From contig NC_134400.1 in NCBI RefSeq assembly GCF_050003625.1, forward strand, positions 49,155,096-49,219,095: a DNA stretch of 64,000 nt, written 5' to 3'. A program made the position numbers and the translations under genes. Below, piece by piece: positions 1 to 63,175 of the stretch (position 1 is its first letter; the number at the start of each line of letters is the position of its first letter). Under the pieces are notes generated by a model, which was given only the letters and a program-made list of their open reading frames with translations, searched no databases and had not been told where the DNA came from. The stretch is from Haematobia irritans. Taxonomy: Eukaryota; Arthropoda; Insecta; Diptera; Muscidae.

Positions 1-1351
1 TATGATTATGGACTGATATGGACCACTTTTGGTATGGTTGTTAAATATCATATACTACAACCACGTACCTAATTTAAGGCAGATCGGATGAATTTTGCTT
101 CTCCAAAAGGCACCAGAGGTCAAATCTGGGGATCGGTTTATATGGGAGCTATATATTATTATGGACTGATAGGAACCAATTCCTGCATGGTTGTTGGATA
201 CCATATACTAACATCACGTACCAAATTTCAACCGAATGGGAAGAATTTTGCTCTTCCAAGGGGCTCTGGAGATCAAATCTGGGATCGGTTTATATGGGGC
301 ATATATATAATTATGGACCGATATCGACCAGTTTTTGCATGGGAGTGTGAGGCCATATATTAACACCACGTACCAAATTTCAACTGAATCAGATGAATTT
401 TGGTCTTCCAAGAGGCTCCGGAGGTCAAATCTTGTGATCGGTTTATATGGGGGCTATATATAATTATGGACCGATGTGGACCAAGTTTTGCATGGTTGTT
501 AAAGACCATATACTAACATCACGTACCAAATTTCAGCCGGATCTGATGAAATTTGCATCTCTTAGCGGCCTCGAAAGCCAAATCGGGGGATCGGTTTATA
601 TGGGGGCTATATATAATTATGGACCGATGTGGACCAATTTTTGCATGGTTGCTAGAGACCATTTACTGACACCATGTACTAAATTTCAGCCGGATCGGAT
701 GAAATTTGCTTCTCTTAGAGGACTCGCAAGCCAAATGGGGGGATCGGTTTATATCGGGGCTATATATAATTATTGACCGATGTGGACCAATTTTTGCATG
801 GTTGCTAGAGACCATATACTGACACCATGTACCAAATTTCAGCCGGATCGGATGAAATTTGCTTCTCTTAGAGGCCTCGCAAGCCAAATCGGGGGATCGG
901 TTTATATGGGGGCTATATATAATTATGGACCGATGTGGACCAATTTTTGCATGGTTATTAGAGACCATATACTAACACCATGTACCAAATTTCAGCCGGA
1001 TCGGATGAAATTTGCTTCTCTTAGAGCGATCGCAAGCCAAATTTTGGGGTCCGTTTATATGGGGGCTATACGTAAAAGTGAACCGATAAGGCCCATTTGT
1101 AATACCATCCGACCTACATCAATAACAACTACTTGTGCCAAGTTTCAAGTCGATAGCTTGTTTCGTTCGGAAGTTAGCGTGATTTCAACAGACGGACGGA
1201 CGGACGGACAGACGGACATGCTCAGATCGACTCAGAATTTCACCACGACCCAGAATATATATACTTTATGGGGTCTTAGAGCAATATTTCGATGTGTTAC
1301 AAACGGAATGACAAAGTTAATATACCCCCCATCCTATGGTGGAGGGTATAA
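1..1351 (+). mobile_element. HL-2 (mini-me-like) element, 3' part
   Basis: The 3' portion of a non-autonomous element whose 5' end lies before the window. Positions 131 to about 1050 hold a minisatellite; the GATCGGTTTATAT motif starts at 131, 283, 436, 589, 742 and 895, a period of 152-153 bp. A GACG/GACA tract lies at about 1190-1218, followed by the core TCGACTCAGAATTTCACC and a short TA run near 1255. The copy ends in a hairpin (CCCCCCATCC..GGTGGAGGG) and GGGTATAA at about 1324-1351. The TA run, core and GACR tract match the mini-me element architecture described in Diptera. Helentron-like ancestry is inferred. Confidence 0.8.
131..1050 (+). repeat. 153-bp minisatellite inside HL-2
   Basis: Six or more diverged tandem units of 152-153 bp. 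Because 153 is 51 codons, a unit open in one frame stays open through the array, which produces long apparent proteins on both strands. I read these as non-coding. Confidence 0.85.
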
Positions 1352-1600
1352 CAAGTAAAGAAAGTCTAAAGTCGGGCGGGGCCGACTATATTAAACCCTG
1401 CACCACTTTGTAGATCTAAATTTTCGATACCATATCACATCCGTCAAATGTATTGGGTGTTATATATAAATCTTTGTCCCAAATACATACATTTAAATAT
1501 CACTCGATTTGGACAGAATTTGATAGACTTTTACAAAATCTATAGACTCAAAATTTATGTTGGCTAATGCACTAGGGTGGAACACAATTTTAGTAAAAAA
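1352..1600 (+). mobile_element. HL-1 5' module, copy a
   Basis: A roughly 245-bp module starting CAAGTAAAG, followed by the palindrome GTCGGGCGGGGCCGAC and a subterminal ACCCTGCACCAC. It ends GGAACACAATTTTAG plus an A run. It joins the GGGTATAA end of the preceding HL-2 element with no spacer. Confidence 0.8.
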
Positions 1601-1601
1601 C

Positions 1602-1848
1602 CAGTAAGGAAAGTCTAAAGTCGGGCGGGGCCGACTATATTATACCCTGCACCACTTTGTAGATCTAAATTTTCGATGCCATATCACATCCGTCAAATGT
1701 GTTGGGGGCTATATATAAAGGTTTGTCCCAAATACATACATTTAAATATCAATCGATCTGGAAGAATTTGATAGACTTCTACAAAATCTATAGACTCAAA
1801 ATTTAAGTCGGCTAATGCACTAGGGTGGAACACAATGTTAGTAAAAAA
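1602..1848 (+). mobile_element. HL-1 5' module, copy b, leading into the 987-bp array
   Basis: A second 5' module in direct orientation (CAGTAAGG start, same palindrome, TATACCCTGCACCAC). It runs straight into the first 987-bp unit. The arrangement of 5' module then 3' module matches the single-copy element at 28641-29859, so the array is probably an amplified 3' part of one HL-1 element. Confidence 0.8.
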
Positions 1849-2633
1849 ATATGGGAAACGTTTAAATCTGAAGCAATGTTAAGGAAACTTCGCAAAAGTT
1901 TACTTATGATTTATCGCTCGATATATATGTATTAGAAGTTTAGGAAAATTAGAGTCATTTTTACAACTTTTCGACTAAGCAGTGGCGATTTTACAAGGAA
2001 AATGTTGGTATTTTGACCATTTTTGTCGAAATCAGAAAAACATATATATGGGAGCTATATCTAAATCTGAACCGATTTCAAGCAAATTTGGCACGCATAG
2101 CTACAATGCTAATTCTACTCCCTGTGCAAAATTTCAACTAAATCGGAGTTAAAAATTGGCCTCTGTGGTCATATGAGTGTAAATCGGGCGAAAGCTTTAT
2201 ATGGGAGATATATCCAAATCTGAACCGATTTCAAGCAAATTTGGCACGCACAGTTACAACGCTAATTCTACTCCCTATGCAAATTTTCAACTAAATCGGA
2301 GCAAAAAATTGGCCTCTGTGGGCAAATGAGTGTAAATCGGGCGAAAGCTATATATGGGAGCTATATCTAAATCTGAACCGATTTTGCTGATATTTTGCAA
2401 GTTTTTCGAGACTCATAAAATATTCGGATGTACGGAATTTGAGGAAGATCGGTTGATATACACGCCAATTATGACCAGATCGGTGAAAAATATATATGGC
2501 AGCTATATCTAAATCTGAACCGTTTTTTTCCAAAATCAATAGGGATCGTCTTTGAGCCGAAACAGGACCCTATACCAAATTTTAGGACAATCGGACTAAA
2601 ACTGCGAGCTGTACTTTGCACACAAAAATACAT

Positions 2634-2697
2634 CAACAGACAGACAGACAGACGGACAGACAGACGGACAGACAGACGGACAGACAGACAGACGGAC
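2634..2697 (+). repeat. (GACA/GACG)n microsatellite, array unit 1
   Basis: A tetranucleotide tract mixing GACA and GACG, present at the same position in every 987-bp unit. Its internal pattern differs between unit types, and the last unit is longer by one GACA. Read on the minus strand it is (GTCY)n, the hallmark tract of dipteran mini-me elements. Confidence 0.85.
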
Positions 2698-2802
2698 ATC
2701 GCTAAATCGACTCAGAATTTAATTCTAAGCCGATCCGTATACTAAAAGGTTGGTCTATGATTACTCCTTCTTGGCGTTACATACAAATGCACAAACTTAT
2801 TA

Positions 2803-2835
2803 TACCCTGTACCACAGTAGTGGTGAAGGGTATAA
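2803..2835 (+). other. HL-1 3'-terminal hairpin (recurs every 987 bp)
   Basis: ATACCCTGTACCAC and GTGGTGAAGGGTAT form an imperfect palindrome around AGTA. The same structure closes every array unit and the solitary copies. The ATACCC..ACCAC arm also occurs near the HL-1 5' end, which makes it a subterminal inverted repeat. Confidence 0.8.
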
Positions 2836-12539: not shown

Positions 12540-12710
12540 GGACAGACAGACGGACAGACAGACAGACGGACATCGCTAAATCGACTCAGAATTTAATTCT
12601 AAGCCGATCCGTATACTAAAAGGTTGGTCTATGATTACTCCTTCTTGGCGTTACATACAAATGCACAAACTTATTATACCCTGTACCACAGTAGTGGTGA
12701 AGGGTATAAC

Positions 12711-13671
12711 CAGTAAGGAAAGTCTAAAGTCGGGCGGGGCCGACTATATTATACCCTGCACCACTTTGTAGATCTAAATTTTCGATACCATATCACATCC
12801 GTCAAATGTGTTGGGGGCTATATATAAAGGTTTGTCCCATATACATACATTTAAATATCACTCGATCTGGAAGAATTTTATAGACTTCTACAAAATCTAT
12901 AGACTCAAAATTTAAGTCGGCTAATGCACTAGGGTGGAACACAATGTTAGTAAAAACAAGTAAGGAAAGTCTAAAGTCGGGCGGGGCCGACTATAGTATA
13001 CCCTGCACCACTTTGTAGATCAAAATTTTCGGTACCATATCACATCCGTCAAATGTGTTGGGGGCCATATATAAACGTTTGTCCCAAATACATACATTTA
13101 AATATCACTCGATCTGGACAGAATTTGATAGACTTCAACAAAATCTATAGACTCAAAATTTAAGCTAATGCACTACGGTGGAACACAATGTTAGTAAAAA
13201 AACAAGTCGGGCGGGTCCGACTATATTATACCCTGCACCACTTGGTAGATATCATACCATATCATATCCGTTAAATGTGTTGGGGGCTATATATAAAGGT
13301 TTATCCCAAATACATACATTTAAATATCACTCGATCAGGACAGAATTTGAGTTCTACAAAACCTATAGACTCAAAATTTAAGTCGGCTAATGGACTAGGG
13401 TGGAACACAATGTTAGTAAAAAACAAGTAAGGAAAGTCTAAAGTCGGGCGGTGCCGACTATATTATACCCTGCTCCACTTTGTAGATCTAAATTTTCGAT
13501 ACCATATCACATCCGTCAAATGTGTTGGGGGCTATATATAAAGGTTTGTCCCAAATACATACATTTAAATATCACTCGATCTGGAATAATTTGATAGACT
13601 TCTACAAAATCTATAGACTCAAAATTTAAGTCGGCTAATGCATTAGGGTGGAACACAATGTTAGTAAGAAA
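12711..13671 (+). mobile_element. Four tandem HL-1 5' modules
   Basis: Direct copies at about 12711-12956, 12957-13202, 13203-13423 and 13424-13671. Each starts CAGTAAGG or CAAGT and carries the GTCGG..CCGAC palindrome and TATACCCTGC. The third lacks the first bases and has internal deletions. The first abuts the 3' end of the 987-bp array. Confidence 0.8.
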
Positions 13672-14490
13672 ATATTGGAAACGTTTAAATCTGAAGCAAT
13701 TTTAAGGAAACTTGGGAAAAGTTTATTTATGATTTATCGCTCGATATATATGTATTAGAAGTTTAGGAAAATTAGAGTCATTTTTACAACTTTTCGACGA
13801 AGCAGTGGCGATTTTACAAGGAAAATGTTGGTATTTTGACCATTTTTGTCGAAATCAAGAGAACATATATATGGGAGCTATATCTAAATCTGAACCGATT
13901 TCAACCAAATTTGTCACGCATAGCTAGAATGCTAATTCTACTCCCTGTGCAAAATTTCAACTAAATCGGAGTTAAAAATTGGCCTCTGTGGTCATATGAG
14001 TGTAAATCGGGCGAAAGCTTTATATGGGAGATATATCCAAATCTGAACCGATTTTGCTGATATTTTGCAAGTTTTTCGAGACTCATAAAATATTCGGATG
14101 TACGGAATTTGAGGAAGATCGGTTGATATACACGCCAATTATGACCAGATCGGTGAAAAATATATATGGCAGCTATATCTAAATCTGAACCGATTTTGAA
14201 CCAAAATCAATAGGGATCGTCTTTGAGCCGAAACAGGACCCTATACCAAATTTTAGGACAATCGGACTAAAACTGCGAGCTGTACTTTGCACACAAAAAT
14301 ACATCAAAAGACAGACAGACAGACAGACAGACGGACAGACAGACAGGCGGACATCGCTAAATCGACTCAGAATTTAATTCTAAGCCGATCCGTATACTAA
14401 AAGGTTGGTCTATGATTACTCCTTCTTGGCGTTACATACAAATGCACAAACTTATTATACCCTGTACCACAGTAGTGGTGAAGGGTATAA
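13672..14490 (+). mobile_element. HL-1 3' module, about 820 bp, internally deleted
   Basis: Aligns by eye with a 987-bp unit but lacks one internal 153-bp sub-repeat and shows scattered substitutions. It keeps the GACA tract, core and terminal hairpin with GGGTATAA. It is a diverged neighbour of the array rather than part of the homogenised block. Confidence 0.8.
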
Positions 14491-17181: not shown

Positions 17182-18050
17182 ATATAGGAAACATTTAAAT
17201 CTGAAGCAATTTTAAGGAAACTTCGCAAAAGTTTATTTATGATTTATCGCTCGATATATATGTATTAGAAGTTTAGGAAAATTAGAGTCATTTTTACAAC
17301 TTTTCGACTAAGCAGTGGCGATTTAACAAGAAAAATATTGGTATTTTGACCATTTTTGTCGAAATCAGAAAAACATATATATGGGAGCTATATCTAAATC
17401 AAATTTGGCACACATGACTATATTACTAATAGTACTCCTAGTGCAAAATTTCAACCAAATTGGGCCAAACCTCTGGCTTCTGGATATAAGTCCATATCGG
17501 GCGAAAAATATATATGGAATCTATATCTAAATCTGAACCGATTTCAATCAAATGTGGCACACATGCCTATACTACCAATTGTACTCCTTGTGCAAAATTT
17601 CAAGCTAATCGGGATAAACTCTGGCTTTTGGGGCCATATAAGTCCATATCGGGCGAAAGATATATATGGGAGCTACAACTAAATCTGAACCGATTTCAAT
17701 CAAATTTTTCACACTTGACTATACTACTAATTGTACTCCTAGTGCAAAATTTCAACCAAATTCGGCCAAAAATCTGGCTTCTGGGGCCATATAAGTCCAT
17801 ATCGGGCGAAATATATATATGGGAGATATATCTAAATCTGAACCGATTTCTTCCAAAATCAATAGGGTTCTATTCTGTCTCAAATAAGGAACATGTGCCA
17901 AATTTGAAGGCAATTGGACTTAAATTGCGACCTAGACTTTGATCACAAAAATATGTTCACAGACAGGCGGACGGACAGACGGACAGACAGACAGACGGAC
18001 ATGGTTATATTTACCGATGAAGACTATATCAGATGGATTTATAAGAACAA
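17182..18050 (+). mobile_element. HL-1/HL-5-type element lacking its 3' hairpin
   Basis: Begins like an HL-1 3' module (ATATAGGAAACATTT). From about 17400 it carries HL-5-like 153-bp repeats (TCCATATCGGGCGAAA) and a GACA/GACG tract at about 17962-18001. The terminal hairpin is absent; the copy stops at the 3' end of the opposing HL-2 element. Confidence 0.7.
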
Positions 18051-18803
18051 TTTTTTTATACCCTCCACCATAGGATGGGGGGTATATTAACTTTATCATT
18101 CCGTTTGTAACACATCGAAATATTGCTCTAAGACCCCATAAAGTATATATATTCTGGGTCGTGGTGAAATTCTGAGTCGATCTGAGCATGTCCGTCCGTC
18201 CGTCCGTCTGTTGAAATCACGCTAACCTCCGAACAAAACAAGCTATCGACTTGAACTTGGCACAAGTAGTTGTTATTTATGTAGGTCGGATGGTATTGCA
18301 AATGGGTCATATCGGTCCACTTTTACATGTAGCCCCATATAAAGGGAACCTCAGATTTGGCTTGTGGAGCCTATAAGAGAAGCAAATTTCATCCGATCCG
18401 GCTGAAATTTGGTACATGGTGTTGGTATATGGTCTCTAACAACCATTGGTCCATATCGGTTAATAATTATATATAGTCCCCATATAAACCGATCCGCCGA
18501 TTTGGCTTGTTGAGCCTCAAAGAGAAGCAAATTTCATCCAATCCGGCTGAAATTTGGCATATGGTGTTAGTATATAGTCCTTAGCATTCTTGCAAAAATT
18601 GGTTCACATCGGTCCATAATTATATATAGCCCCCATATAAACCGATCCCCAGATTTGGCTTGCGAAGCCTCAAAGAGAAGCAAATTTCGTCCGATACGGC
18701 TGAAATTTGGTACATGGTATAAGTATATGGTCTCTAACAACCATGCAAAAATTGGTCCATATCGGTCCATAATTATATAACCCCCATATAAACCGATCCC
18801 CAC

Positions 18804-19899: not shown

Positions 19900-20339
19900 A
19901 TTTGAACTCCGGAGCCTCTTAGAGGAGCAAAATTCATCTGATCCGGTTGAAATTTGGTACGTGGTGTTAGTATATGGTCTCTAACAACCATGTAAAAATT
20001 GGTCCATATTGGTCCATAATTATATATAGCCCCCATATAAAACGATTCCCAGATTTGGTTTGCGGATCCTCTAAGAGAAGCAAATTTCATCCGATCCGGC
20101 TGAAATTTGGTACATGGTATTAGTATATAGTCTCTAACAACTATTCAAAAATTTGTCCATATTAGTCCATAATTATATATAGCCCCCATATAAACCAGAT
20201 TTGAACTCCGGAGCCTCTTGGAGGAGCAAAATTCATCCGATCCGGTTCAAATTTGCAACGTGGTGTTAGTATATGGCCGCTAAAAAATTGGTCCATATCG
20301 GTTCATAATCATGGTTGCCATTCGAGTCAAAAATCATCT

Positions 20340-20610
20340 AGCAAAATTTTATTTCTATAGAAAATTTTGTCAAAATTCCTATAGAAAATTTTGTCAAATT
20401 TTATTTCTATAGAAAATTTTTGCAAAATTTTATTTCTATAGAAAATGTTGTCAAAGTTTTAATTCTATAGAGAATATTGTCAAAATTGAAAATTTTTGTC
20501 AAAATTGAAAATTTTGTCAAAATTTTATTTCTATAGAAAATTTTGTCAAAATGTTATTTCTATAGAAAATTTTGTTAAAATCGTATTTCTACAGAAAATT
20601 TTGTCAAACT
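20340..20610 (-). repeat. 29-bp minisatellite (TTTCTATAGAAAATTTTGTC type)
   Basis: About nine imperfect units, with TTCTATAGAA as a small palindrome in each. The same unit occurs at 45440-45640, 47690-48130 and 53950-54180, in both HL-2 and HL-3 elements, so it is a shared internal module. Confidence 0.8.
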
Positions 20611-22108: not shown

Positions 22109-22347
<239 letters not shown>

Positions 22348-22936
22348 TGGGTCGTGGTGAATTTCTGAGTCGATCTGAGCATGTCCGTCCATCCGTCTGT
22401 TGAAATCACGCTAGCTTTCGAACGAAACAAGCTATCGACTTGAAACTTAGCACAAGTAGTTGTTATTGATGTAGGTTGGATGGTATTGCAAATGGGCCAT
22501 ATCGGTCGACTTTTACGTATAGCCCCCATATAAACCGATCCCCCGATTTGGCTTGCGGAGCCTCTAAGAGAAGCAAATTTCTTCTGATCCGGCTGAAATT
22601 TGGTACATGGTGTTAGTATATGGTCTCTAATGACCATGCAAAAAATGGTCCACATCGGTCCATAATTATATATAGCCCCCATATAAACCGATCCCCAGAT
22701 TTTACCTCCGGTGCTTTTGGGGAAGCAAAATTCATCCGATCTGGTTGAAATTTGGTATGTGGTGGTGTATATGATATTTAACAGCCATGCCAAAATTGGT
22801 CCATATCAGTCCAAAATCATATATATCCCCCATATAAAGCGATCCCGAGATTTGACTTTGGAGCCTCTTGGAGGAGCAAATTTCATCCGAGTCAGTTGAA
22901 ATTTGGTAATATATGGCCGTTAACAACCATGCCTAA

Positions 22937-28640: not shown

Positions 28641-29859
28641 CAGTAAGCAAAGTCTAAAGTCGGGCGGGGCCGACTATATTATACCCTGCACCACTTTGTA
28701 GATCTAAATTTTCGATACCATATCACATCCGTCAAATGTGTTGGGAGCTATATATAAAGGTTTGTCCCAAATACATAAATTTAAATATCACTCGATCTGG
28801 AAGAATTTGATAGACTTCTACAAAATCTATAGACTCAAAATTTAAGTCGGCTAATGCACTAGGGTGGAACACAATGTTAGTAAAAAATAAATATGGGAAA
28901 CGTTTAAATCTGAAGCAATTTTAAGGAAACTTCGCAAAAGTTTACTTATGATTTATCGCTCGATATATATGTATTAGAAGTTTAGGAAAATTAGAGTCAT
29001 TTTTACAACTTTTCGACTAAGCAGTGGCGATTTTACAAGGAAAATGTTGGTATTTTGACCATTTTTTTCGAAATCAGAAAAACATATATATGGGAGCTAT
29101 ATCTAAATCTGAACCGATTTCAACCAAATTTGGCACGCATAGCTACAATGCTAATTCTACTCCCTGTGCAAAATTTCAACTAAATCGGAGTTAAAAATTG
29201 GCCTCTGTGGTCATATGAGTGTAAATCGGGCGAAAGCTTTATATGGGAGATATATCCAAATCTGAACCGATTTCAAGCAAATTTGGCACGCACAGTTACA
29301 ACGCTAATTCTACTCCCTATGCAAAATTTCAACTAAATCGGAGCAAAAATTGGCCTCTGTGGGCAAATGAGTGTAAATCGGGCGAAAGCTATATATGGGA
29401 GCTATATCTAAATCTGAACCGATTTTGCTGATATTTTGCAAGTTTTTCGAGACTCATAAAATATTCGGATGTACGGAATTTGAGGAAGATCGGTTGATAT
29501 ACACGCCAATTATGACCAGATCGGTGAAAAATATATATGGCAGCTATATCTAAATCTGAACCGATTTTTTCCAAAATCAATAGGGATCGTCTTTGAGCCG
29601 AAACAGGACCCTATACCAAATTTTAGGACAATCGGACTAAAACTGCGAGCTGTACTTTGCACACAAAAATACATCAACAGACAGAGAGACAGACAGACAG
29701 ACGGACAGACAGACAGACGGACATTGCTAAATCGACTCAGAATTTAATTCTAAGCCGATCCGTATACTAAAAGGTTGGTCTATGATTACTCCTTCTTGGC
29801 GTTACATACAAATGCACAAACTTATTATACCCTGTACCACAGTAGTGGTGAAGGGTATT
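28641..29859 (+). mobile_element. Complete single-copy HL-1 element
   Basis: A 5' module (28641-28890: CAGTAAGC, GTCGGGCGGGGCCGAC, TATACCCTGCACCAC) is followed by one 3' module (28891-29859: three 153-bp sub-repeats, GACA tract at about 29679-29724, hairpin, GGGTATT). The flanks are unrelated to HL sequences and show no obvious target duplication. This is the simplest reference for the family and shows that the 987-bp array unit is only its 3' part. Confidence 0.82.
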
Positions 29860-41561: not shown

Positions 41562-42450
<889 letters not shown>

Positions 42451-44165: not shown

Positions 44166-46081
44166 TATACCCTAAACCACATAGTGGTCAGGGTATAATA
44201 AGTTTGATCGGCCAAAAAAATGTGCCTACCAGATATATTGATTTTAGAACCCATAAAATATATACCGATCGACTCAGAATCACCTCCTGAGTCGATCTAG
44301 CGCTTGGTGTCCGTCCGTCCGTCTGCCCATGTATTTGTTGTTCACAGGATTCCGGTCGCAATTATTAACCGATTTTGATGAAATTTGGTACTTGGTGTTT
44401 TTTGGGCACAAAGACGAACGCTATTGAATTTGGAAGAAATCGGATCAAATTTAGATATAGCTCCCATATATATGTATCGCCCGATTTCGACAAATGGGGT
44501 CACGTTGCGCTTTTTTTCAAACGGATCGTCACCAAATTTGGCAGAAGGTAATCCTTTTCACCGCCCTTCAAGTCTGCAAAATTTCATCCAAATCGGTTCA
44601 TATTTAGATATAGCTCTCATATATATGTGTCGGCCGATTTTTCTAAATTTGGCTATAAAACCCTTCCAGAAAATTTATTAGATATAATTAAGGTTATTAC
44701 TTGTCAAAGAAAATTTTGTAGTTTGAAGGAAAAAATTGGAGTTAAAAATTGCAAGAATGTCTTTAGTGACATACGAAGTGCATAATGAATGCATTTGTAG
44801 TAAAATTTACAAATTAAAAGAAATATTGAACTATTTTGTGGAAGACACGAATTTAGTTAATCTTTATCCTTCATTTGTGTATATTTTTTTCATCGGTTTA
44901 ATTTGACTAACGTACACAAAAAATTATTAGAGTAGAGGAAACTTTCTCCAAACACAATAATTCCATGAACTAAACGAAAGTTAAATTGGCTTTAGTGAAA
45001 TAGAGTTCACTTTTGTTGAGTGTAGCCGATCGTATTTATACGTACTTGTAGCACTTACATACGAATATTGCTCGATTTTTACAAAATTTGGATTTATTAC
45101 CCACACTAATTGAGAGATTTTATCTTTTTTAATAATGGGCTCATATTAGTGGCATACTAACTCCGTAGGTGCAATATCAACACAGCCAGTGTTGCTAGAA
45201 GTAGAATAGAATTCCCTATATGTAGGGTTTTTCTAATATTTAGCGTCTTGTAGGGACGTAGGGCCACAATGTAGGGACATTTTCCCTCAACACAATTTGT
45301 AATAATTTTTACATTTTGGTGGCTCAGAGGAGGAAATTAGAAGCCGGCAAGGCTTGATTTTAACAATGTGTAGTAACAACAGTTACCACTCGTGCCAAAA
45401 AAATCTAACAAAATTTGAAGATTACCACAAATCTACCAAATAAATATTTCTATAGAAATTTTTGTCAAAACTTTATTCCTGTAGAATATTTTGTCAACAT
45501 TTTATTTCTATAGAAAATTTTGTCAAAATTGTATTTCTATAAAATTTTTTTTCAAAATATTATTTCTATAAAAAATTTTCTCAAAAATTTTATTGAATAA
45601 GAATTTATTGTCAAAATTTTATTTTTATAGAGATTTAACAAAAAAAAGATTACTATTTTGGGTATAATTCTACCAACTGTGGCAACCGTGGTGGTAATAC
45701 AAATTTATGTTGTAAGTTATATACGTTGCATATTCATGTTTTAAGATAATAAAGTACTTAGAACCATTTTTGTTTTGTACAATTTTTTAAATTTAGCGAA
45801 AAATATTGTAGGGAAAATTGTATGGGAAAGTAGGGAACTTTGTTTGTCCTTGTAGGGTAAACCGAACATTTTCCCTGGCAACATTGACTATGAGATATAG
45901 TCAGATTGGGACAAAGCACCCATAAACACGTACCCCTTAATTTTCTTAAATATGTAACTGCGGTTTATCTCCCAAACCTATATCAATGTTACCACACAAA
46001 TGTGTATGATTACTAATTCAGTAAGGGTGGTTTAGGCTATGATATAGTCAGCCCCGCCCGACTTTCTACTTTACTTACTTG
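44166..46081 (-). mobile_element. HL-3 element with both ends (copy 1)
   Basis: 5' end at 46081 (minus: CAAGTAAGTAAAGTAG, GTCGGGCGGGGCTGAC, CATAGCCTAAACCACC). It continues through a 29-bp minisatellite (45440-45640) and 153-bp-type repeats. GTCCGTCCGTCCGTCTG lies at 44311-44327. The 3' hairpin is ATACCCTAAACCACATAGTGGTCAGGG at 44166-44200. About 44690-45025 may hold an old insertion, since it ends in GAGTGTAG. Confidence 0.75.
44267..44297. other. HL-3 core hairpin
   Basis: GATCGACTCAG and CTGAGTCGATC are 11-bp exact inverses around a 9-base loop, next to the GTCC tract. The same hairpin occurs at about 52555-52585. The arm is the TCGACTCAG core seen once in the other families, so HL-3 carries an inverted duplication of the core. 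Confidence 0.8.
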
Positions 46082-48375
46082 TTATACCCTCCATCATAGG
46101 ATGGGGGTATATTAACTTTGTCATTCCGTTTGTAACACATCGAAATATTGCTCTAAGACCCCATAAAGTATATATATTCTGGGTCGTGGTGAAATTCTGA
46201 GTCGATCTAAGCATGTCCGTCCGTCCGTCTGTTGAAATCACGCTAACTTCCGAACGAAACAAGCTATCGACTTGAAACTTGGCACAAGTAGTTGTTATCG
46301 ATGTAGGTCGGATGGTATTGAAAATGGGCCATATCGGTCCACTTTTACGTATAGCCCCCATATAAAGGGACCCTCAGATTTGGCTTGTGGATCCTCTAAC
46401 AGAAGCATATTTCATCCGATCCGGCTGAAATTTGGTATATGGTGTTGGTATATGGTCTCTAACAATCATGCAAAAATTGGTCCACATCGGTCCATAATTA
46501 TATATAGCCCCCATACAAAACCGATCCCCAGATTTGGCTTGCGGAGCCTAAAAGAGAAGCAAATTTCATCCGATCCGGCTGAAATTTGGTACATGGTGTT
46601 GGTATATGGTCTCTAACAATCATGCAAAAATTGGTCCACATCGGTCCTTAATTATATATAGCCCCCATATAAACCGATCCCCAGATTTGGCTTGCGGAGC
46701 CTCAAAAAGAAGTAAATTTCATCCGATCCGTCTGAAATTTGGTACATAGTGTTGGTATATGATCTCTAACAACCGTGCAAAAATTGGTTCACATCGGTCC
46801 ATAATTATATATAGCCCCCATATAAACCGATCCCCAGATTTGGCTTGTGGTGCCTCTAAGAGAAGCATATTTCATCCGATCCGGCTGAAATTTGGTACAT
46901 GGTGTTGGTATATGGTCTCTAACAATCATGCAAAAATTGGTCCACATCGGTCCATAATTATATATAGCCCCCATATAAACCGATCCCCATATTTGGCTTG
47001 CGGAGCCTCAAAGAGAAGCAAATTTCATCCGATCCGGCTGAAATTTGGTACATGATGTTGGTATATGGTCTCTAACAACCATGCAAAAATTGGTCTACAT
47101 CGGTCCATAATTATATATAGACCCCATATAAACCGATTCCAGATTTGGCTTGCGAAGCCTCAAAGAGAAGCAAATTGCATCCGATCCGGCTGAAATTTGG
47201 TACATGGTATTGGTATATGGTCTCTAACAACCGTGCAAAAATTGGTCCACATCGGTCCATAATTTTATATAGCGCCCATATAAACCGATCCCCAGATTTG
47301 GGTTGCGGATCCTCAAAGAGAAGCAAATTTCATCCGATCCGCCTGAAATTTGGTACATGATATTGGTATATGGTCTCTAACAACCATGCAAAAATTGGTC
47401 CACATCGGTTCATTATTATATATAGCCCCCATATAAACCGATCCCCAGATTTGGCTTGCGAAGTCTCCAAGAGAAGCAAATTTCATCCAATCCGGTTGTA
47501 ATTTGGAACATGGTGTTAGTATATGATCTTAAACAACCGTGGCAGAATTGGTCCATATCGGTCCATAATTATTATAAATTAGGAACGTGGTGTTAGTATA
47601 TGGTCGCTAACAACCATACCAAAATTGGTCCAGTCACACACAAATTGGTCCATATCGGTTCATAATCATGGTTGCCACTAGAGCCAAAAATAATCTACCA
47701 AAATTTTATTTCTATAGAAAATTTTGTCAAAATTTTATTTCTAGAGAAAATTTTGTTAAAATTTTATTCGGTTCATAATAAAATTTTCATCATTGTCAGA
47801 ATTTTATTTCTATAGAAAATTTTGTCAAAATTTTATTTCTATAGAAAATTTTGTTCAAATTTTATTCGGTTCATGATCATGGTTGCCACTCGAGCCAAAA
47901 ATAATCTACCAAGATTTTATTTCTATAGAAAATTTTGTCAAAAGTTTATTTCTATAGAAAATTTTGTTAAAATTTTATTTCTGTAGAAATTTTTGTCAAA
48001 ATTTTCTTTCTATAGAAAATTTTGTCAAAATTTTTATTTCTATAGAAAATTTTGTGAAAATTTTATTTCTATAGAAAATTATGTTAAAATTTTATTTCTG
48101 TAGAAAATTTTGTAAAAATTTTATGTCTACTTTGTCAAACTGAAATATATACGTATTGGATCGATCTTTTTTGATTTAATATATACCACGTATGGACTTA
48201 CATACAATTTAGAAGATGGTGTTAGGAGGTTTTAAGATATCTTGCCATCGGCAAGCGTTACCGCAACTTAAGTAATTCGATTCTGGATGGCAGTGTTTAG
48301 AAGAAGTTTCTACGCAATCCATGATGGAGGGTACATAAGCTTCGGCCTGGCCGAACTTACGGCCGTATATACTTG
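46082..48375 (-). mobile_element. Full-length HL-2 element, 2.29 kb
   Basis: On the minus strand: 5' end 48375 (CAAGTATATACGGCCGTAAG, TTCGGCCAGGCCGAA, TACCCTCCATCATGG). Then the 29-bp minisatellite (47690-48130), 153-bp repeats (about 46350-47560), the GTCC tract (46216-46232), the core, a short TA run, and the 3' hairpin with GGGTATAAC at 46082-46110. It is uninterrupted, so it is the best reference copy of HL-2 in the window. Confidence 0.82.
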
Positions 48376-49455: not shown

Positions 49456-50913
49456 AAGCAAAAGTCTATATCGGGCGAAAAATATATATGCAAGATATAT
49501 CTAAATCTGAACCGATTTCAACCAAATTTGGCACGCATAGCTACAATGCTAAATCTACTCCCTGTGCAAAGTTTCAACCAAATTGGGCCAAAACTCTGGC
49601 TTGTAGGACCATATTAGTCCATATCGGGCGAAAGATATATATGGGAGCTATATCTAAATCTGAACCGATTGCAATCAAATCTTGCACACTTGACTATACT
49701 ACTAATTGTACTCCTAGTGCAAAATTTCAACCAAAGTCGGCCAAAAATCTGGCTTCTGGGGCAATATAAGTCCATATCGGGCGAAAGATATATATGGGAG
49801 CTATATCTAAATCTGAACCGATTTCAATAAAATTTTGCACACTTGACTACACAACTAGGTGTTATGTTTGTACAAAATTTCAAGCAAATCGGTATAAAAC
49901 TCTGGCTGCTGGGTCCATATTAGTGCATATCGGGCGAAAGATATATATGGGAGCTATATCTAAATCTGAACCGATTTCAATCAAATTTAGCACACATGAC
50001 TATATTACTAATTGTAAGCCTAGTGCAAAATTTCAACCAAATTGGGGCAAAACTCTTGCTTCTGGGGCCATATAAGTCCATATCGGGCGAAAAATATATA
50101 TGGAAGCTATATCTAAATCTGAACCGATTTCTATCAAATTTGGCACACATGACTATACTACCAATTGTACTCCTTGTGCAAAATTTCAAGCTAATCGGGA
50201 TAAAACTCTGGCTTCTGGGTCCATATAAGTGCATATCGGGCGAAAGATATATATGGGAGCTATATCTAAATCTGAATCGATTTCAACCAAATTTGGCACG
50301 CATAGCTGCAATGCTAAATCTACTACCTGTGCAAAATTTCAACCAAATGGGGCCAAAACTCTGGCTTTTACAACCATATTAGTCCATATCGGGCGAAAGA
50401 TATATATGGGAGCTATATCTAAATCTGCACCGATTTCAATCAAATTTTGCACACTTGACTATACGACTAAGTGTTATGTTTGTACAAAATTTCAAGCAAA
50501 TCGGTATAAAACTCCGGCTGCGGGGTCCATATTAGTGCATATCGGGCGAAAGATATATATGGGAGCTATATCTAAATCTGAACCGATTTCTTTCAAAATC
50601 AATAGGGTTCTATTCTGACCCAAATTAGGAACATGTGCTAAATTTGAAGGCGATTGGACTTAAATTGCGACCTAGACTTTGATCACAAAAATGTGTTCAC
50701 AGACAGACGGACGGACGGACAGACGGACAGACGGACAGACGGACAGACGGACAGACGGACAGACGGACAGACGGACATGGTTATATCGACTCAGGGACCC
50801 ACCCTGAGCATTTTGGCCAAAGACACCATGTGTCTATATCGTCTCCTTCTGGGTGTTGCAAACATATGCACTAACTTAAAATACCCTGTTCCACAGTGTG
50901 GCGCAGGGTATAA
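49456..50913 (+). mobile_element. HL-5 element, 3' part, with 153-bp repeats
   Basis: TATATGGGAGCTATATC units recur with ATGG at 49641, 49794, 49947, 50100, 50253, 50406 and 50559, exactly 153 bp apart. A GACG/GACA tract follows (about 50700-50776), then the core TATATCGACTCAGGGACC. The hairpin ATACCCTGTTCCACAGTGTGG..GCAGGGTATAA ends at 50913. No 5' end; the left side is fused to inverted HL-2. Confidence 0.82.
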
Positions 50914-52339: not shown

Positions 52340-55087
52340 CCCAGCAAAAAAATTTGGAAGTTCTTCTTAAGGCACAACTTTAAAAGAACTTCCAAAAATG
52401 TCCTGCCAAAGATGTTCTTTATTTTAACTGCACAGAAAGTTCATTTGAGACTTTTTATACCCTAAACCACATAGTGGTCAGGGTATAATAAGTTTGATCT
52501 GCCAAAAAAGTGCCTACCAGAAATATTGATTTTAGACCCCATAAAATATATACCGATCGACTCAGAATCACCTCCTGAGTCGATCTAGCGCTTGGTGTCC
52601 GTCCGTCCGTCCGTCTGTCCATGTATTTGTTGTTCACAGGATTCCGGTCGCAATTATTAACCGATTTTGATGAAATTTGGTTCAGGGATTTTGTTGGGCA
52701 CAAGGACGAACGCTATTGAATTTGGAAGAAATCGGATCAAATTTAGATATAGCTCCCATATATATGTATCGCCCGATTTGGACAAATGGGTCACGTTGCG
52801 CGTTTTTTCAAACGGATCGTCACCAAATTTGGCAAAAGGTAAACTTTTCCATCGCCCTTCAAGTCTGCAAAATTTCATCCTAATGGCTTCAGATTTAGAT
52901 ATAGCTCTCATATATATGTATCGCCCGATTTTCCCAAATTTAGCCACAAAACCTTTATTTATCAACCGATCTTACCCAAAGTTGGCTAAATATAATCTTC
53001 TATAGCACTAACTATATGTGCAAAAAATCATCGAAATCGGTTCAGATTTAGCTATAGCTCCCATATATATGTATAGCCCGATTTTCCAAAATTTGGCCAT
53101 AGAACCCTTATTTATCAACCGATCTTACCCAAATTTGACTAAATGTAGTCTTCTATAGCACTAACTATATGTGCAAAAAATCATCGAAATCGGTTCAGAT
53201 TTAGATATTGCTCCCATATATATGTACCGCCCGATTTTTCTAAATTTGGCCATAGAACTCTTATTTATTAACCGATCTTACTAAAAGTTGACTAGATCCA
53301 GTCCTCTATAGCACTAACTATATGTGCAAAATTTCATCGATATCGGAATCCCACATATGTATCACCCGATTTTGAAAAATTCGCCCCTAATAACCTTATG
53401 TTTAACCATACAGGCCTCATTTCTTAACTGATCTTACTCAAATCTTGCACAAGGTAACCTTTTGTGGTATTAATCAAACCAGCAAAATATTATGCAGATT
53501 TAGATATAGCTTCCATATATATGTATCGCTCGATTTTCCCAAATTTGGCCATAGTACTCTTATTTATTAACCAATGTTACTCAAATTTCAAATTTTGATG
53601 TACTAGCCGAGCGTACTTATACGTACTTGTAGCTCTTACATAAGAATGTTGCTCGATTTTTACAAATTTGTATTTATTACCCACACTAATTTAACGATTT
53701 TCTCTTTTTTAATAATGGGCTCAATATTAGTGGCATACTAACTCCGTAGGTGCAATATCAACACAGCCAGTGTTGCTAGAAGTAGGGGAAATTCCCTATA
53801 TGTAGGGTTTTTCTAATATTTAGCGTCTTGTAGGGACGTAGGGCCACAATGTAGGACATTTTCACTCAACAAAATTTGTAATAATTTTTACATTTTGCTG
53901 GCTCTAGAGGAGGAAATTAGAAGCCGACAAGGCTTGTTCTTTAACAATGTGTGCTAAACTTTATTCCTGTAGAACATTTTGTCAAAATTGTATTTCGATA
54001 GAATTTTTTTTCAAAATATTATTTCTATAAACAATTTTCTCAAAATTTTATTTCTCTGTAATTTTTTCTCCAAATTTTATTTCTATAGAATTTATTGTCA
54101 AAATTTTATTTCTATAGAAAAATTTCTCACAAAAATTTGTTTATAGAAACTTTTTCCAAAATTTTATTTTTATAGATATTTAACAAAATAGATTACTAAT
54201 TTGGGTAGAATTCTACCAACTGTGGCAACCGTGATGGTAATACAAATTTATATTCTAAGTTATATACGTTGCATATTCATGTTTTAAGATAATAAAGTAC
54301 TTAGAACCATTTTTGTTTTGTAAAATTTTTTTAAATTTAACGAAAAATATAGTAGGGAAAATTGTTTGGGAATGTATGGGAAAGTAGGGAACTTTTTTTG
54401 TCCTTGTAGGGTAAACCGAACATTTGCCGTGGCAACATTGACTATGAGCTATAGTCAGATTGACACAAAGCACCCATAGACGTGTACCCCTTAATTTTCT
54501 TAAATATGCAACTGCGGTTTATCTCCCAGACCTATATGTTACCCCACAAATGCTTATGATTACTAATTCTGTAATGGTGGTTTAGGGTATGATATAGTCG
54601 GCCCCGCCCGACTTTCTACTTTACTTACTTGTTTATAACTCGATTTTTTCATATTTTTAATGGGAAATTTAAAATTTTATTGTTCCAAATGGGTTAGAAA
54701 CAGATTAAAAATTAATAAAATAGTGCATATTATTTAAATTTTGTCGAAAAAAATGCTAAATCCTTTCTAGAAAAATTCGAATTTTTAAAAATATTTGATG
54801 TCAAATGTTCCAGACAAGCGTTATAATGCGTTGAAAATCATACAAAAATTGTAAAAATTATTTATTTGTCAAAATATCACAAAATTTCTTTATTCACATC
54901 CAAATCACTGGATGTGCATCACACCTTAAGAAGTGAGGCAAATTCAGTGCAACGGCAATAGATAAGGAGGACTTCCATCCTATGACAAGCCCATGTTAAA
55001 ATCATCGCTTCTGCGCCAATTTTGCACCACTTCCGAATCCAAAAAGAAAATTTTCACTACTTTTCTGGCGACGCTTTTTTTGCTGGG
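52340..55087 (+). mobile_element. CCCAGCAAAAAAA-family MITE split by HL-3
   Basis: Left end CCCAGCAAAAAAATTTGG at 52340, right end GACGCTTTTTTTGCTGGG at 55087. The interior matches 23214-23772 on both sides of the HL-3 insertion (..TTTGAGACTTTTT and TATAACTCGATTTTTTC). The outer flanks match the uninterrupted family X site at 51040-51060. Confidence 0.75.
52457..54631 (-). mobile_element. Full-length HL-3 element (copy 2), 2.18 kb
   Basis: Both boundaries are defined by the host MITE. On the minus strand: 5' end at 54631 (CAAGTAAGTAAAGTAG, GTCGGGCGGGGCCGAC, CATACCCTAAACCACC). Then a 29-bp minisatellite (53950-54180), 153-bp repeats (CTCCCATATATATG near 52753, 52905, 53058 and 53211), GTCC tract (52598-52617), core hairpin, and the 3' hairpin ACCACATAGTGGT with GGGTATAA at 52457-52495. 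The 5' ATACCCTAAACCAC is the exact inverse of part of the 3' end. No target duplication is apparent. Confidence 0.85.
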
Positions 55088-56793: not shown

Positions 56794-56989
56794 TTTAATT
56801 TTTATAAAAATGTAAAATCGTAAATAGGTTTTCAAATTCTGGGGGTGGGGCTAAATTTTTTCTGGGGGGTCTAAGCCCCTTCCCCAGAGGTCTTCCTACG
56901 CTTATGGAAATATGAATACGAAATCTGAACCAATTAGATCAAAAAGCATATTAAATATTTCTCTGTGGAAACTATCGAGTCAACTGAAG
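56794..56989. other. Short unassigned stretch
   Basis: Contains a G-rich TCTGGGGGGTCTAAGCCCCT motif similar to the 40.3-kb hairpin segment; otherwise nothing recognised. Confidence 0.45.
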
Positions 56990-57712
56990 GAAACTCCCAT
57001 TGAAAATGGGTCTAAAATATGAAACATTTTACTCAACTCTGGCGTATATATACAAAATGTGAAGCAAATCAGGCTTCAACTCTGGCTTTTGTGCAAATCG
57101 GGCGAAGTATATATATGGGTGCTATATCTAAATCTGATCCGAGTTCAAACAAATTTGGCACAGTTAACCATACTATTAAACGCACTCCTTTTGCAACATT
57201 TGAAGAAAACAGGGTAAAATTCTGGCTTTTGATGCCATATAAGTCCAAATCGGACGAAAGGTATATATGGGAGCTATATCTAAATCTGAACCGATTTCAA
57301 CCAAATTTGGCACAGTTAACCATATTATAAAACGTACACTTTGTGCAAATTTTAAATCAAATAAGGGCAAAATTCTGGCTTTTGAAGCCATATAAGTGCA
57401 AATCGGACGAAAGATATATATGGGAGCTATATCTAAATCTGAACCGATTTAGGTGATGTGTTGCAGGTTTTACGTGACCGACAAAACATTCAGATGTACG
57501 AAATTTGAAGAAGATCGGTTCATAAATACGTGAATTATGATCAAATCGGTGATAAATATATATGGCAGCTATATCTAAATCTGAACCGATTTTTTCCAAA
57601 ATCAATAGCGATTGTCTTTGACCCGAAGAAAGACCCCATGCCAAAATTGAGGACGATCGGACTTAAATTGCGAGCTGTACTTTGTGCACAAAATTACATA
57701 TACAGACAGACG

Positions 57713-57751
<39 letters not shown>

Positions 57752-57925: not shown

Positions 57926-58250
57926 TTTTTGTTTTGGTTTGTTAATCACGGTCACGCACACTCACGCCGTTGCCGTGAGCGTGAGTCACGAAAATTTTCG
58001 TGAGTCACGACAATTTCGTGTCACGTGTACACCTCTACAACAAAATTTGCTTCACAAAAGACGCTCTATCTCACAAACTAATTGACTTACAGGCGTCAAA
58101 TTTTGACACGAATCATGTGAAGGTTGGTACTATATAAAAATAATATGCATTTAATACTAGCGACGCCATCTATGTGTCAGACCGGGGACTTATCAGCCAA
58201 CCTGTTATATGGAGGCCTTACCAAGTGGACCGATAAAACTATCATATAAA
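57926..58250. other. No gene; probable transposon end fragments
   Basis: 57945-58035 is packed with GTGAGTCACG-type motifs and CACGAAAATTTTCGTG, ending GTGTACACCTCTA, which looks like a hAT-type end with subterminal repeats. The rest (GACGCCATCTATGTGTCAG) looks like another transposon fragment. Neither has a matching partner end here. Confidence 0.4.
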
Positions 58251-60052
58251 CAAGTATATAAAGCAGTAAATTCGGCCGGGCCGAATTTTAAATACCCACC
58301 ACCATGAACCAAGTATAATAGTTTACTATGAAAACTCTTCGTCGTAGTGGGTTACTTGATAATATATAGAATAGTAGGGGGTTTGATGACAAATCTTCTC
58401 CCTCTTCTGCGCCTGCTATACCCTGAAAGAAGTGTTTTCTTTTTTGAGAAACGTAATTTTCGACAAGCAAAGTTTTCTTTTGACACAAATGTTAGAGACA
58501 ATCGTTGAATAAACGAAACACTTTATAAGAAAAAGAAATTTCGCTTGTCTAAAATTTTATTATAGATTACTAATTTCCAGCAAATCGGATAAAAACTACG
58601 TATTCTAGAAGCCCAAGAAATAAAGCCAGGAGATCGGGGTATATGGGGCTATACCAAAACATGGACCGATAGGCACCATTTGCTACTCACAAATTTGTGA
58701 TCTTAAAATACCTCCAGATTTTAAATTTCAAACAAATTGGCCAAAAAATATAGTCTCTACAAGCCCAAGAAGTAAAAATCGAGAGCAGTCTATATGGGGG
58801 TTATACCACAAAATGGGCCGATAAACCTCAATTTCGGCACTTTTATTTGTGGTCTAAAAATACCTCTTGATTTCGAATTTCAGGCAAATCATGTAATAAA
58901 TACAGTTTATTGTAGCTCAAGAATTTCAGCTAAGCGGATGGTAAATATAGTTTCTGGAAGCCCAAGAAGTAAAATGGAAGATCGGTATATATGGGGGCTA
59001 TACCGAAAAATGGACCGATGGGCACCATTTTCGGCACACCTTTTTATGGTCCCAAAAGAACTCTAGATTTTCAATTTCAGGAAAATCGGATAGAAAATAA
59101 GTTTCTAGAAGCCCAAGAAGCAAAATCGGGAAATCAGTCTCTATGGGGGCTATATCAAAACATGGACCGATGAGCACCATTTTCGGCACACCTTTTTATG
59201 GTCTTCAAATACCTCCAAATTTCCAATTTCAGGCAAATTGGATGGTAAATATAGTTTCTAGAAGCCCTAAAAGCAAATTCGGGATATCGGTCTATATGGG
59301 GGCTATACCAAAACATGGACCGATGCGGACCACTTTCGACACACCTCTTTATGGTCCCAAAATACCTTTAGATTTTCAATTTCATACAAATCGGATAGAA
59401 AATACTGTTTCTAGACGTGTAAGAAGCAAAATCAGGGGATCGGTCTATATGGGGGCTATACCAAAACATGGACCGATATGGACCATTTTCGACACACCTA
59501 TTTATAGTCCCACAATACCTCTAGATTTCCAATTTCAGGCAAATCGGATGGTAAATATAGTTTCTAGACGCCCAAGAAGCAAAATCGGGAGATCGGTCTA
59601 TATGGGGGCTATATCAAAACATGGACCGATATGGACCATTTTCGACACACCTCTTTATGGTCCCAAAATACCTCTAGATTTCCAATTTCAGGCAAATCTG
59701 ATAAAAACTACGGTTTTTATAGGCCCAAGACCCCAAATCGGGAGGTCGGTTTATATGGGGACTATATCAAAACTTGGACCGATATAGCCCATCTTCGAAC
59801 TTGACCTGCCTGCAAACAAAAAACTAATCTGTGCCAAATTTCGGGACGATAGCACCATTATTGAAGGCTGTAGCGTGATTACAACAGACAGACAGACAGA
59901 CAGACGGACAGACGGACATGCTTATATCGTCTTAGAATTTCTCCCTGATCAAGAATATATATACTTTATATAGTCGGAAATCGATATTTCGATGTGTTAC
60001 AAACGGAATGACAAACTTATACCCCGTCACCATTTTATGGTGGTGGGTATAA
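58251..60052 (+). mobile_element. Full-length HL-4 element, 1.8 kb
   Basis: 5' end CAAGTATATAAAGCAG, palindrome TTCGGCCGGGCCGAA, then TACCCACCACCATGAACC. 153-bp repeats have ATGGGG at 58991, 59143, 59296, 59449, 59602 and 59755. GACA tract at about 59885-59920, core TATATCGTCTTAGAATTTC, and 3' hairpin CACCATTTTATGGTGGTGGGTATAA at about 60028-60052. The 5' TACCCACCACCAT and the 3' TATGGTGGTGGGTA are inverse. No protein is encoded despite a 214-codon frame. Confidence 0.82.
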
Positions 60053-61576
60053 AAACATGGACCGATAATCACCATTTTCGGCACATCTCTTTATTTTCGT
60101 AGAATATTTCTACATTTCCAATTTCAGGAAAATTGGGTAGAAACTACGGATTCTAGAAAACCAAGAAGTAAAATCGGGAGATCGGTCTATATGGGGGCTA
60201 TATCAAAACATGGACCGGTACTCACCATTTTCGACACACGTCCTTACGGTCCTAGAATACCTCTAAATTACAAATTTCAGACAAATTGTATAAAAATTAC
60301 GGATTCTAGTAGCCCACGAAGTAAAATCGGGAGATCGGTCTATATGGGGGCTATATCAAAACATGGACCGATACTCACCATTTTCGACACACCAATTTTT
60401 GATCTTAAAATACCTTTAGAATTTCAATTTCAGACAAAGATAGAAAATACACTTTATAGACGCCCAAGAAGCAAAATCCGGAAATCGGTCCATATGGGGG
60501 TTATACCAAAACATGGACCGATAGGCACTATTTTCGATACACTTTTTGATGGTCCAAAAATACTTCTAGATTTCCAATTTCAGGCAAAAATAAAAACTAC
60601 GGTTTTTATAAGCCCTAGACCCCAAATCGGGAGGTCGTTTTATATGGGGACTATATCAAAACCCATCTTCAAACTTGACCTGCCTGCAAACAAAAGACGA
60701 ATATGTACCAAATTTCAGGACGATCAGAGATGGTCTGTATCAAACTTTTTAAGGTTTGCGACTGTCGCAAAGTTGTAAACGTCGTAAACGTCACATACAT
60801 GTCGTAAATGTAGAAAAAGTAGCAAACGTCGCAAACTCCAAATACTTCGGACCCTTCAGATAGGCAGCAAATAATATCCATATCATAAAATTATTAACGA
60901 GTTTAAAAAATTTGAGAATATAGTTATTTCAATTGGAAACTCGAAGCCAAAATTACTATAAACTACTCGACGGGCGGTACTCGCTCATAGTCAACCTTTC
61001 ACAAATTACTGCAGAAACTGGAAGGAAGGAAAACTACTTAAGTCTTGCATAAGTAAATTGCTGTTTAGAGAGAATTTTATAAAATCATTTTGTTGGCGTA
61101 TTAGAGCCAACCTCCATACTAATTACAAATTTTCAAAATTGTTCTAGTCATTCGTTGATGCAGCTAAAGCTTGGATGGACATTAGGACCACGAAAACCAA
61201 GAATACTTTGAAGTTGTGAATGAGAGATGTAAATCTAGTAGAGCTTTGAATAAATACAATATATAGCATTTTTTGCATACCTTTTATCGGGGAGCTTAAC
61301 TAAATTAAATTGAAAAATATTTACAATTTCTTTAATTCCAAATTAGGTTTTCTACACTAGGTTTACGACTTTTGCGACATACGTATTATACCGTCGTAAA
61401 CGTATGTCGCAAAAGTCACAGTTTGCGACAGGCCAACCCTGAGGACGATAGCGCCATTATTGAAGGCTGTAGCGTGATTACAACAGACATGCTTATATCG
61501 TCTTAGAAATTCGCTCTGATCAAGAATATATATACTTTATATAGTCGGAAATCGATATTTCGATGTGGTACGATTT
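60053..61576 (+). mobile_element. Partial HL-4 element interrupted by a hAT MITE
   Basis: Continues directly from the end of the previous HL-4 with further 153-bp repeats (60054-60724). After the hAT MITE it resumes at 61442 through the core to CGATATTTCGATGTGG. The terminal hairpin is missing. Confidence 0.75.
60725..61441. mobile_element. hAT-type MITE with 8-bp target duplication
   Basis: Ends CAGAGATGGTC and GGCCAACCCTG (inverse CAGGGTTGGCC), flanked by AGGACGAT at 60717-60724 and 61442-61449. The 8-bp duplication and CAG-initial ends are hAT hallmarks. Subterminal repeats such as GTTTGCGAC, GTCGCAAA and GTCGTAAACG are clustered at both ends. At 717 bp there is no transposase frame. Confidence 0.9.
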
Positions 61577-63175
61577 GGTTAAGTACCCACCACCATGAAT
61601 CAAATATAATAGTTTCTTTTGAAAATTATTGGTCGTAGCGCGTTACTTGATAATATATAGAATTTCAGGGGGTTTTATGACAGATATTTTACCAAGCAGG
61701 ACAGTTCAACCAGTACTCTTTCCGAAGATACATTTAAAAATTTTACCTATGAAGACTAAATCAGATTCTGGATTTATAAGACCCATTTTTGTTTGAGTTT
61801 TTGAGGAATCATACGCCTTGATCTAAAATCCGTAGATTTTTACCCCCCATTATTTAAATGATTACGAGGAGTAAAATCTGGAAATTTTACATTCAGTTTC
61901 AAGAAATTTTCATGATCAGTTCTCCTTCTCTATCGGAGGGCCGGTATTTAAGGGAGCTATAGCAAAACCTGTACCGATATACAATATATTCACCGCACCT
62001 ATTTATAGGCCTTAAAAAATCTGGAAGTTCAAGAAGTAAATTCAGAAGATCGGTCTATATGGGGGCTATACCAAAACATGGACCGATAACCACCATTTTC
62101 GGCACACCTCTTTATGGTCCTAAAATACCTCTAGATTTCAAATTTCAACCAAATTGGATAATAACCACGGATTCTAGAAGCCCAATATGTAAAATCGGGA
62201 AATCGGTCTATATGGGGGCTATACCTAAACATGCCGAAAATGGTGAGCATCGGTATAGCCCCCATATAGACCGATCTCCAGTTTTTACTTCTTGGGCTTC
62301 TAAAATCTGTAGTTTTTATCCAATTTGCCTCAAATTGGAAATCTAGAGGTATTTTAGGACCATAAAAAGGTATGCCGAAAATGGTGAGTATAGGTCCATG
62401 TGTTGATATAGTCGTCAGATAGACCGATCTCCCGATATTACTTTTTGGGCTTCTAGAAACCGTTGTTGTTGTACACTTTGTCTGAAATCTGGAGGTTTTT
62501 AGGAATACAAATAGGTGTGCAAGAAATGATTTTATTTTTTAGGCTTCTAGAATCCGTAGTTTTTATCTAATTTGCCTGAAATGAGAAATCTACAGGTATT
62601 TAAGGACCTTAAATATGCCGAAAATGGCGTATATTGGCCCATGTTATGGTTTATCTCCCAAATAGAGCGATCTCCCGATTTTACTTCTTGGGCTTTTAGA
62701 AACCATAGTTTTTATCAAATTTGCATGAAATTTTAAATCTACAAGTATTTTAGGAACATAAAGAGGTGTGCCGAAAATGGTGAATATCGGTCCATGTGCA
62801 CTAATAATGAAAATTGCTTGAAACTGAATTATAGTTTCCAGATTGTACTTCTGGTAATCATTTAAATAATGGGGGTAAAAATCTACAGATATTAAATTTT
62901 AAATCAAGGCGTTATTTCATTTTCATTTCATTTTCTTGCAGACTTGCACACGATGTTTATGATTCCTCTAAAACTCAAACAAATATGGTTCTTATAAATC
63001 CAGAATCTGATCTAGTAAGTAAAATCTTTGAATTTATCTTCGGGAAGTATACTGGTTAAACTGATCTGCTTGTCACCAAATCCCCCTGAAATTTTCACAG
63101 GAAACTATAATATTTGATTCATAGTGGTGGGTATTTAAGATTCGGCCCGGCCTAACTTACTGCTTTATATACTTG
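61577..63175. mobile_element. Inverted duplication of HL-4 5' parts
   Basis: The left arm runs plus from TACCCACCACCATGAATC (61583); the right arm runs minus from CAAGTATATAAAGCAGTAAG with CGGGCCGAATC and TACCCACCACTATG (63175-63125). They meet near 62230-62245 within a 153-bp repeat. Landmarks pair across the centre, such as TTTAAATGATTACGAGGAG (61852) with GGTAATCATTTAAATAATGG (62852). Both 3' ends are absent. Confidence 0.72.

Follow-up and report, generated by a model that had tools for sequence, protein, structure and literature searches.

Tandem repeats with a unit of about 153 bp recur along a 64,000-nucleotide stretch of the genome of the fly Haematobia irritans (contig NC_134400.1, positions 49,155,096 to 49,219,095), the whole of which is called the window below. 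Most likely, these arrays represent central tandem repeats of non-autonomous Helentrons of the DINE-1/mini-me type. They fall into six diverged families, the units of which nevertheless align almost without gaps.

Repeat units and their families

A preliminary description of the sequence had recognized five families of arrays, HL-1 to HL-5, with a common internal period of 152-153 bp. Here, the units were delimited by an anchor, TATATGGGRGCTATA, with at most two mismatches for counting sites, and with at most three mismatches and a spacing of 140-165 bp for calling units; all unit, family and indel counts refer to this one 64-kb window. The anchor has 130 sites (96 on the plus strand and 34 on the minus strand), and ten first-order Markov sequences, scanned on the plus strand only, contained none. 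Measured from anchor to anchor, 59 of the 88 units have a length of exactly 153 bp, 16 are 142 bp, eight are 152 bp, two are 151 bp, two are 150 bp and one is 154 bp, which confirms the period given for HL-1 to HL-5. Autocorrelation peaks at 153 bp in 11 of the 14 arrays examined, at 152 bp in two and at 151 bp in one. The motif starts listed earlier lie 3-9 bp from the anchor starts, as they use another reference point within the unit.

Some details of that description are modified. The 153-bp step of HL-5 holds, but its seven starts (49638-50556) make six steps, and seven are reached only with a decayed unit at 49485. The regular steps of HL-1 hold for two 153-bp units, after which comes a fixed unit of 142 bp. 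The five families are present, and so is a sixth (57112-57559). Further units were found at 17511-17815, 18487-18790, 20040-20192, 22533-22836, 29087-29391, 39838, 44471, 60188-60640 and 62056. Three of the five decayed HL-1 copies are short by exactly one 153-bp unit.

The 60 distinct units comprise eight of F1 (HL-1), 21 of F2 (HL-2), four of F3 (HL-3), nine of F4 (HL-4), nine of F5 (HL-5), two of the sixth family, F6, and seven of the 142-bp unit, which occurs in F1 and F6 elements. Their alignment has 154 columns and is nearly gap-free. The consensuses of F1 to F6 are 52-83% identical in pairs, and those of F1 to F5 differ among themselves by no indel at all; one of the two F6 units is a base short, and a single deletion of 11 bp sets the 142-bp unit apart from the other families. 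Each unit contains four recognizable blocks at offsets common to the families: the anchor at 0, CCGAT at +27 (52 of 60 units; at +25 in one and without an exact match in seven), AATTT at +85 (53 of 60), which is joined by an ATCGG-like block at +97 (45 of 60), and, 17 bp ahead of the next anchor, an AAATCGG-like block (42 of 60, none of them the 142-bp unit). In a midpoint-rooted FastTree phylogeny, F1, F2, F4, F6 and the 142-bp unit form clades. The near-gapless alignment, the common offsets and the grouping by family give good support to the proposal of a single origin: judged from the sequences, the 153-bp units of the six families most likely descend from one ancestral repeat, and their common period would be due to this descent. 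The tree places the 142-bp unit with F3 and F1 with F5, so that units of more than one kind were probably present in the ancestor.

Elements carrying the arrays

In all six families the arrays are accompanied by (ACAG)n, a core and the palindrome TATACCC..GGGTATA, and the microsatellite, (GTCY)n in the opposite sense, adjoins the edge unit, the single-copy stretch between the last anchor and the microsatellite (Table 1). Read in the opposite sense, the order array, (ACAG)n, core, palindrome is the published DINE-1 order, namely 5′ subterminal inverted repeat (subTIR) with an inverted repeat, block A, GTCY, central repeats, 3′ subTIR and hairpin, as given in PMC2374699 and PMC4067079. Both ends are recognizable in one 2.3-kb F2 copy, which has exactly matching 13-bp subTIRs and a hairpin past the 3′ subTIR and is followed by a T run. 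Its 3′ hairpin motif recurs near 20.7 kb.

Table 1. Positions in the window of the repeat arrays, edge units and element ends
Feature	Position	Strand	Remarks
Most complete element, F2	46082-48375	+	DINE-1 orientation (5′ palindrome first; array reads on minus strand); matching 13-bp subTIRs, hairpin beyond 3′ subTIR
5′ subTIR	46085-46097	+	TACCCTCCATCAT; inside palindrome 46083-46112
(GTCY)n microsatellite of F2 element	46215-46230	+	
F2 edge unit	46233-46364	-	single copy, between microsatellite and array
F2 array	46365-47435	-	seven units: 153, 154, 153, 153, 153, 152, 153 bp in plus-strand order
3′ subTIR	48321-48333	+	exact inverse of 46085-46097
3′ hairpin	48341-48355	+	perfect 7-bp stem, one-base centre
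F2 (HL-2) array	139-1055	+	six units, 152-153 bp
F2 edge unit	1056-1187	+	132 bp to microsatellite
F1 (HL-1) units	2045-2350	+	two units of 153 bp; recurs in other 987-bp copies
F1 142-bp unit	2351-2492	+	one 11-bp deletion relative to other families
F1 edge unit	2493-2635	+	143 bp to microsatellite
F5 (HL-5) array	49485-50555	+	seven 153-bp units, first decayed
F5 edge unit	50556-50698	+	143 bp to microsatellite
F3 (HL-3) array	52763-53220	-	units of 152, 153, 153 bp
F3 edge unit	52619-52762	-	144 bp to microsatellite
F6 array	57112-57416	+	units of 152 and 153 bp
F6 142-bp unit	57417-57558	+	
F6 edge unit	57559-57701	+	143 bp to microsatellite
F4 (HL-4) array	58988-59751	+	five units, 152-153 bp
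F4 edge unit	59752-59883	+	132 bp to microsatellite
Second F4 array	60188-60640	+	units of 153, 150, 150 bp

Several other features accompany these elements. Between 1849 and 12709 eleven F1 elements of 987 bp stand head to tail. Measured against one copy of the series, their identity is 99.2-100%, and roughly one copy in three (3823, 6784 and 9745) is of a variant type; here an entire transposon forms a satellite-like array of recent origin. Four tandem units of 247 bp (12708-13672) contain a TATACCCTGCACCAC stretch together with the inverted repeat AGTCGG..CCGACT and look like one end of a further small Helentron. In the F2 array at 46321-47576 there is, in addition, a period of 458 bp (2.7 copies), that is, a three-unit higher-order pattern, and the same element has a 29-bp tandem array (47699-48129) between its 153-bp repeats and its 3′ end; similar arrays are present at 20342-20608, 45445-45636 and 53956-54181. 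At 49462-49463 a minus-strand F2 array and a plus-strand F5 array meet inside their repeats. The short TA tract in one F2 block A contains a perfect (AT)117 (22112-22345), and there is a second long AT tract at 42027-42400.

Constancy of the unit length

The preliminary description had suggested that the length is held by a constraint, such as nucleosome-scale spacing or the preservation of a 51-codon reading frame. Fixed changes were inferred by parsimony on the consensuses and compared with variants within families by one-sided Fisher tests. There are 162 fixed substitutions in the arrays (F1 to F5) and 146 in the edge units of six families, and no indel in these columns. Within families, the array units have 429 substitutions and 11 indels, and five F2 edge units have 16 substitutions and two indels. 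Taken together, 308 fixed substitutions without an indel stand against 445 substitutions with 13 indels (P 0.0012); the edge units alone give P 0.011. The part of the element beyond the microsatellite has 121 substitutions and ten gapped columns, taken by eye as five events, and differs in this respect from the edge unit (P 0.020). Five decayed F1 copies have, besides unit loss and changes in the microsatellite, 55 substitutions and four indels (1, 1, 1 and 12 bp), and the fixed changes differ from these as well (P 0.0006), although two of the four indels lie in array units and are already among the 11. These tests lend moderate support to a constraint on the unit length, without the 51-codon version of it, which is rejected below.

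All 15 pairs of edge units from the six families are gap-free over 132 columns at 51-88% identity, and the block layout is kept over these columns. An edge unit is closer to the edge units of other families than to a tandem partner. F2 and F4 have 132 bp between the last anchor and the microsatellite, F1, F5 and F6 have 143 bp, and F3 has 144 bp.

The reading that we favour is a joint one, in which the arrays are Helentron central repeats derived from one ancestral repeat, and selection on the distances between conserved blocks keeps the unit close to 153 bp. These blocks, near the 5′ end of the element, might be bound by its Rep/helicase or by a host factor. If they are, copies that suffer an indel within a unit would seldom give rise to a family. 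The arrays would lengthen and shorten through unequal exchange or slippage of a rolling-circle intermediate. We give this reading, in which the binding is presumed, an even chance of being correct.

A number of points weigh against it. The arrays alone give P 0.031. If the 142-bp unit is included (339 substitutions) and the larger changes, i.e. this unit and the 132/143-bp edge distance, are counted as one, two or three fixed indels, P becomes 0.0045, 0.016 or 0.040. The indel samples are small, of shared ancestry and from one window, and neither a decayed unit at 60641, which has a gap of 15 bp, nor two additional F2 copies entered the comparison of edge units. As controls, the other tandem arrays of the window give a mixed picture: those of 247, 142 and 128 bp show 86%, 86% and 89% match with 9%, 3% and 0% indels, respectively. 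Between the first 200 and the last 80 bases of the 987-bp F1 unit there is no inverted match of at least 8 bp, so that the complete set of DINE-1-like features is seen in F2 only. Finally, the central repeat regions of DINE-1 are said to differ much between Drosophila species, and non-homologous origins were suggested, in PMC2374699; this speaks against tracing every DINE-1 element to a single ancestral repeat, though not against doing so for the families in the window.

Some of these points would fit plain inheritance, according to which the 153-bp array was handed down and too few indels were fixed to alter it, with no constraint on length at all. Common descent is indeed clear, and the tests depend on 11-13 indels within families. 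However, the complete lack of fixed indels beside their presence within families and in the decayed F1 copies (with the overlap of two noted above) speaks against mere inheritance, as does the report of about 153 bp in Drosophila too; we regard this explanation as possible but rather unlikely. It seems improbable that the repeat mechanism rather than a function keeps the period, with unequal exchange or conversion purging units of other lengths. Loss of units in exact 153-bp steps and the clustering of F1, F2, F4 and F6 units by family are what such a process would produce, but since the single-copy edge unit is gap-free too, and is nearer to other edge units than to its tandem neighbour, the register of the array is not sufficient to explain the fixed length. 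Packaging of one nucleosome per unit also has little likelihood. The unit is near the size of a nucleosome core, and AA/TT/TA dinucleotides show a period near 10 bp slightly more strongly than shuffles do (0.015), but the other two dinucleotide tests gave 0.11 and 0.175, so that helical periodicity is weak; moreover, a fixed 142-bp unit exists, and the edge unit has kept its length although it is not in an array on the microsatellite side.

That the unit is a 51-codon protein repeat, the length of which preserves a reading frame, is very improbable indeed. Frame +0 is free of stops in the consensuses of F2, F3, F4, F6 and the 142-bp unit (five of seven; the last two are not multiples of three) and in 17 of the 40 distinct 153-bp units, and open reading frames of 192, 214 and 195 amino acids cross arrays. 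Yet pooled differences at codon positions 1, 2 and 3 are 0.385, 0.370 and 0.341, and the third position is the lowest within F2, F3, F4 and F5 as well, not in F1, F6 and the 142-bp unit. The synonymous fraction in frame +0 shows no excess in the four families tested (z = -1.1 in F2, -1.4 in F4, 0.0 in F5 and 1.1 in F1), F1 averages 3.0 stops per unit in this frame, which is open elsewhere, and a scan of five open reading frames gave no Pfam match at the curated cut-off. On these grounds a coding unit was rejected, and we read the stop-free frame as a by-product of conserved blocks in register.

Structured RNA was considered as well. RNAalifold gives seven weak pairs within the unit, two of them with changes on both sides. 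A scan for stems of three pairs in 41 gap-free units found ten stems paired in at least 70% of units, where 20 column shuffles reach at most eight; nine of the ten never vary, and the best has two stem types while shuffles reach three, so that covarying hairpins are unsupported. A scan against Rfam had no match at the gathering score, and one for tRNA and tmRNA had none.

Relation to known repeats

Close counterparts have been described. The arrays belong to a known kind of repeat, the central repeats of about 150-154 bp published as DINE-TR1 and 154TR. Like the arrays in the window, these are borne by Helentrons; they have homologues in different species, are conserved chiefly toward one end of the unit, and turn into satellite-like arrays (PMC9957191, PMC6922343, PMC3833285). 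The repeats of DINE-TR1, about 150 bp long, also occur in Bactrocera tryoni, and a Drosophila serrata array of about 82.6 kb holds about 540 copies (PMC9957191), which by division is 153 bp per copy. 154TR is found in several Acalyptratae (PMC6922343). The period is not peculiar to the window, a possibility left by the preliminary description, because D. virilis has 2,219 clusters with about 14,160 units of 153-154 bp; these derive from Helitron-2, which has four copies of the repeat between positions 237 and 1087 of its 9,141 bp, and according to the authors are not part of the D. virilis DINE-1 itself (PMC3833285). The window differs in its six diverged families, exact 153-bp length, 142-bp unit and edge unit, 154TR having been compared by description only. 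Its units have their information content peak in the first 30 columns, and AGCT is present in most F1, F3, F5 and F6 anchors. AGCT is the AluI site, and AluI cuts D. virilis DNA into 154-bp fragments. Both features are consistent with homology to 154TR, where conservation is strongest in about 30 bp.

Two further systems were likened by description only. The mini-me/Helitron2_Cv element of Calliphora vicina shares with the elements here a DINE-1-like organization, subTIRs, an inverted repeat beside the 5′ subTIR, a GTCY tract and a terminal hairpin, but has a consensus of 750 bp, and the available text mentions no tandem array; related elements are reported to be common in Lucilia, Musca and other Muscomorpha (PMC3630058), a distribution which, together with the type of element, points to a higher fly as the host. 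The HINE elements of Crassostrea gigas, also non-autonomous Helentrons with satellite-like central repeats, mostly of 140-180 bp, belong to another phylum and have several unrelated unit lengths (PMC7492417). Two sequence patterns had no match in viral and genome contig collections, which are not fly genomes, and a text search of the literature for strings of the unit found none. No description of a Helentron repeat of 153 bp from calyptrate flies, and no test of its length by indels, turned up in our literature search.

A bolder proposal, about which we are doubtful, is that the 153-bp repeat may be an iteron-like cis module of a rolling-circle transposon rather than a passenger. The distances between its binding blocks would then have stayed locked between Drosophila and this fly, with a unit of about 15 helical turns, and the two main changes of length that became fixed, 11 bp each, come close to a single turn of the helix. 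Satellite DNA is known to arise from the central repeats of Helentrons. The blocks keep their spacing both between families that have diverged and in the edge unit, which is present once; this raises the question of whether they bind Rep/helicase or a host factor, and whether their spacing is important for transposition.

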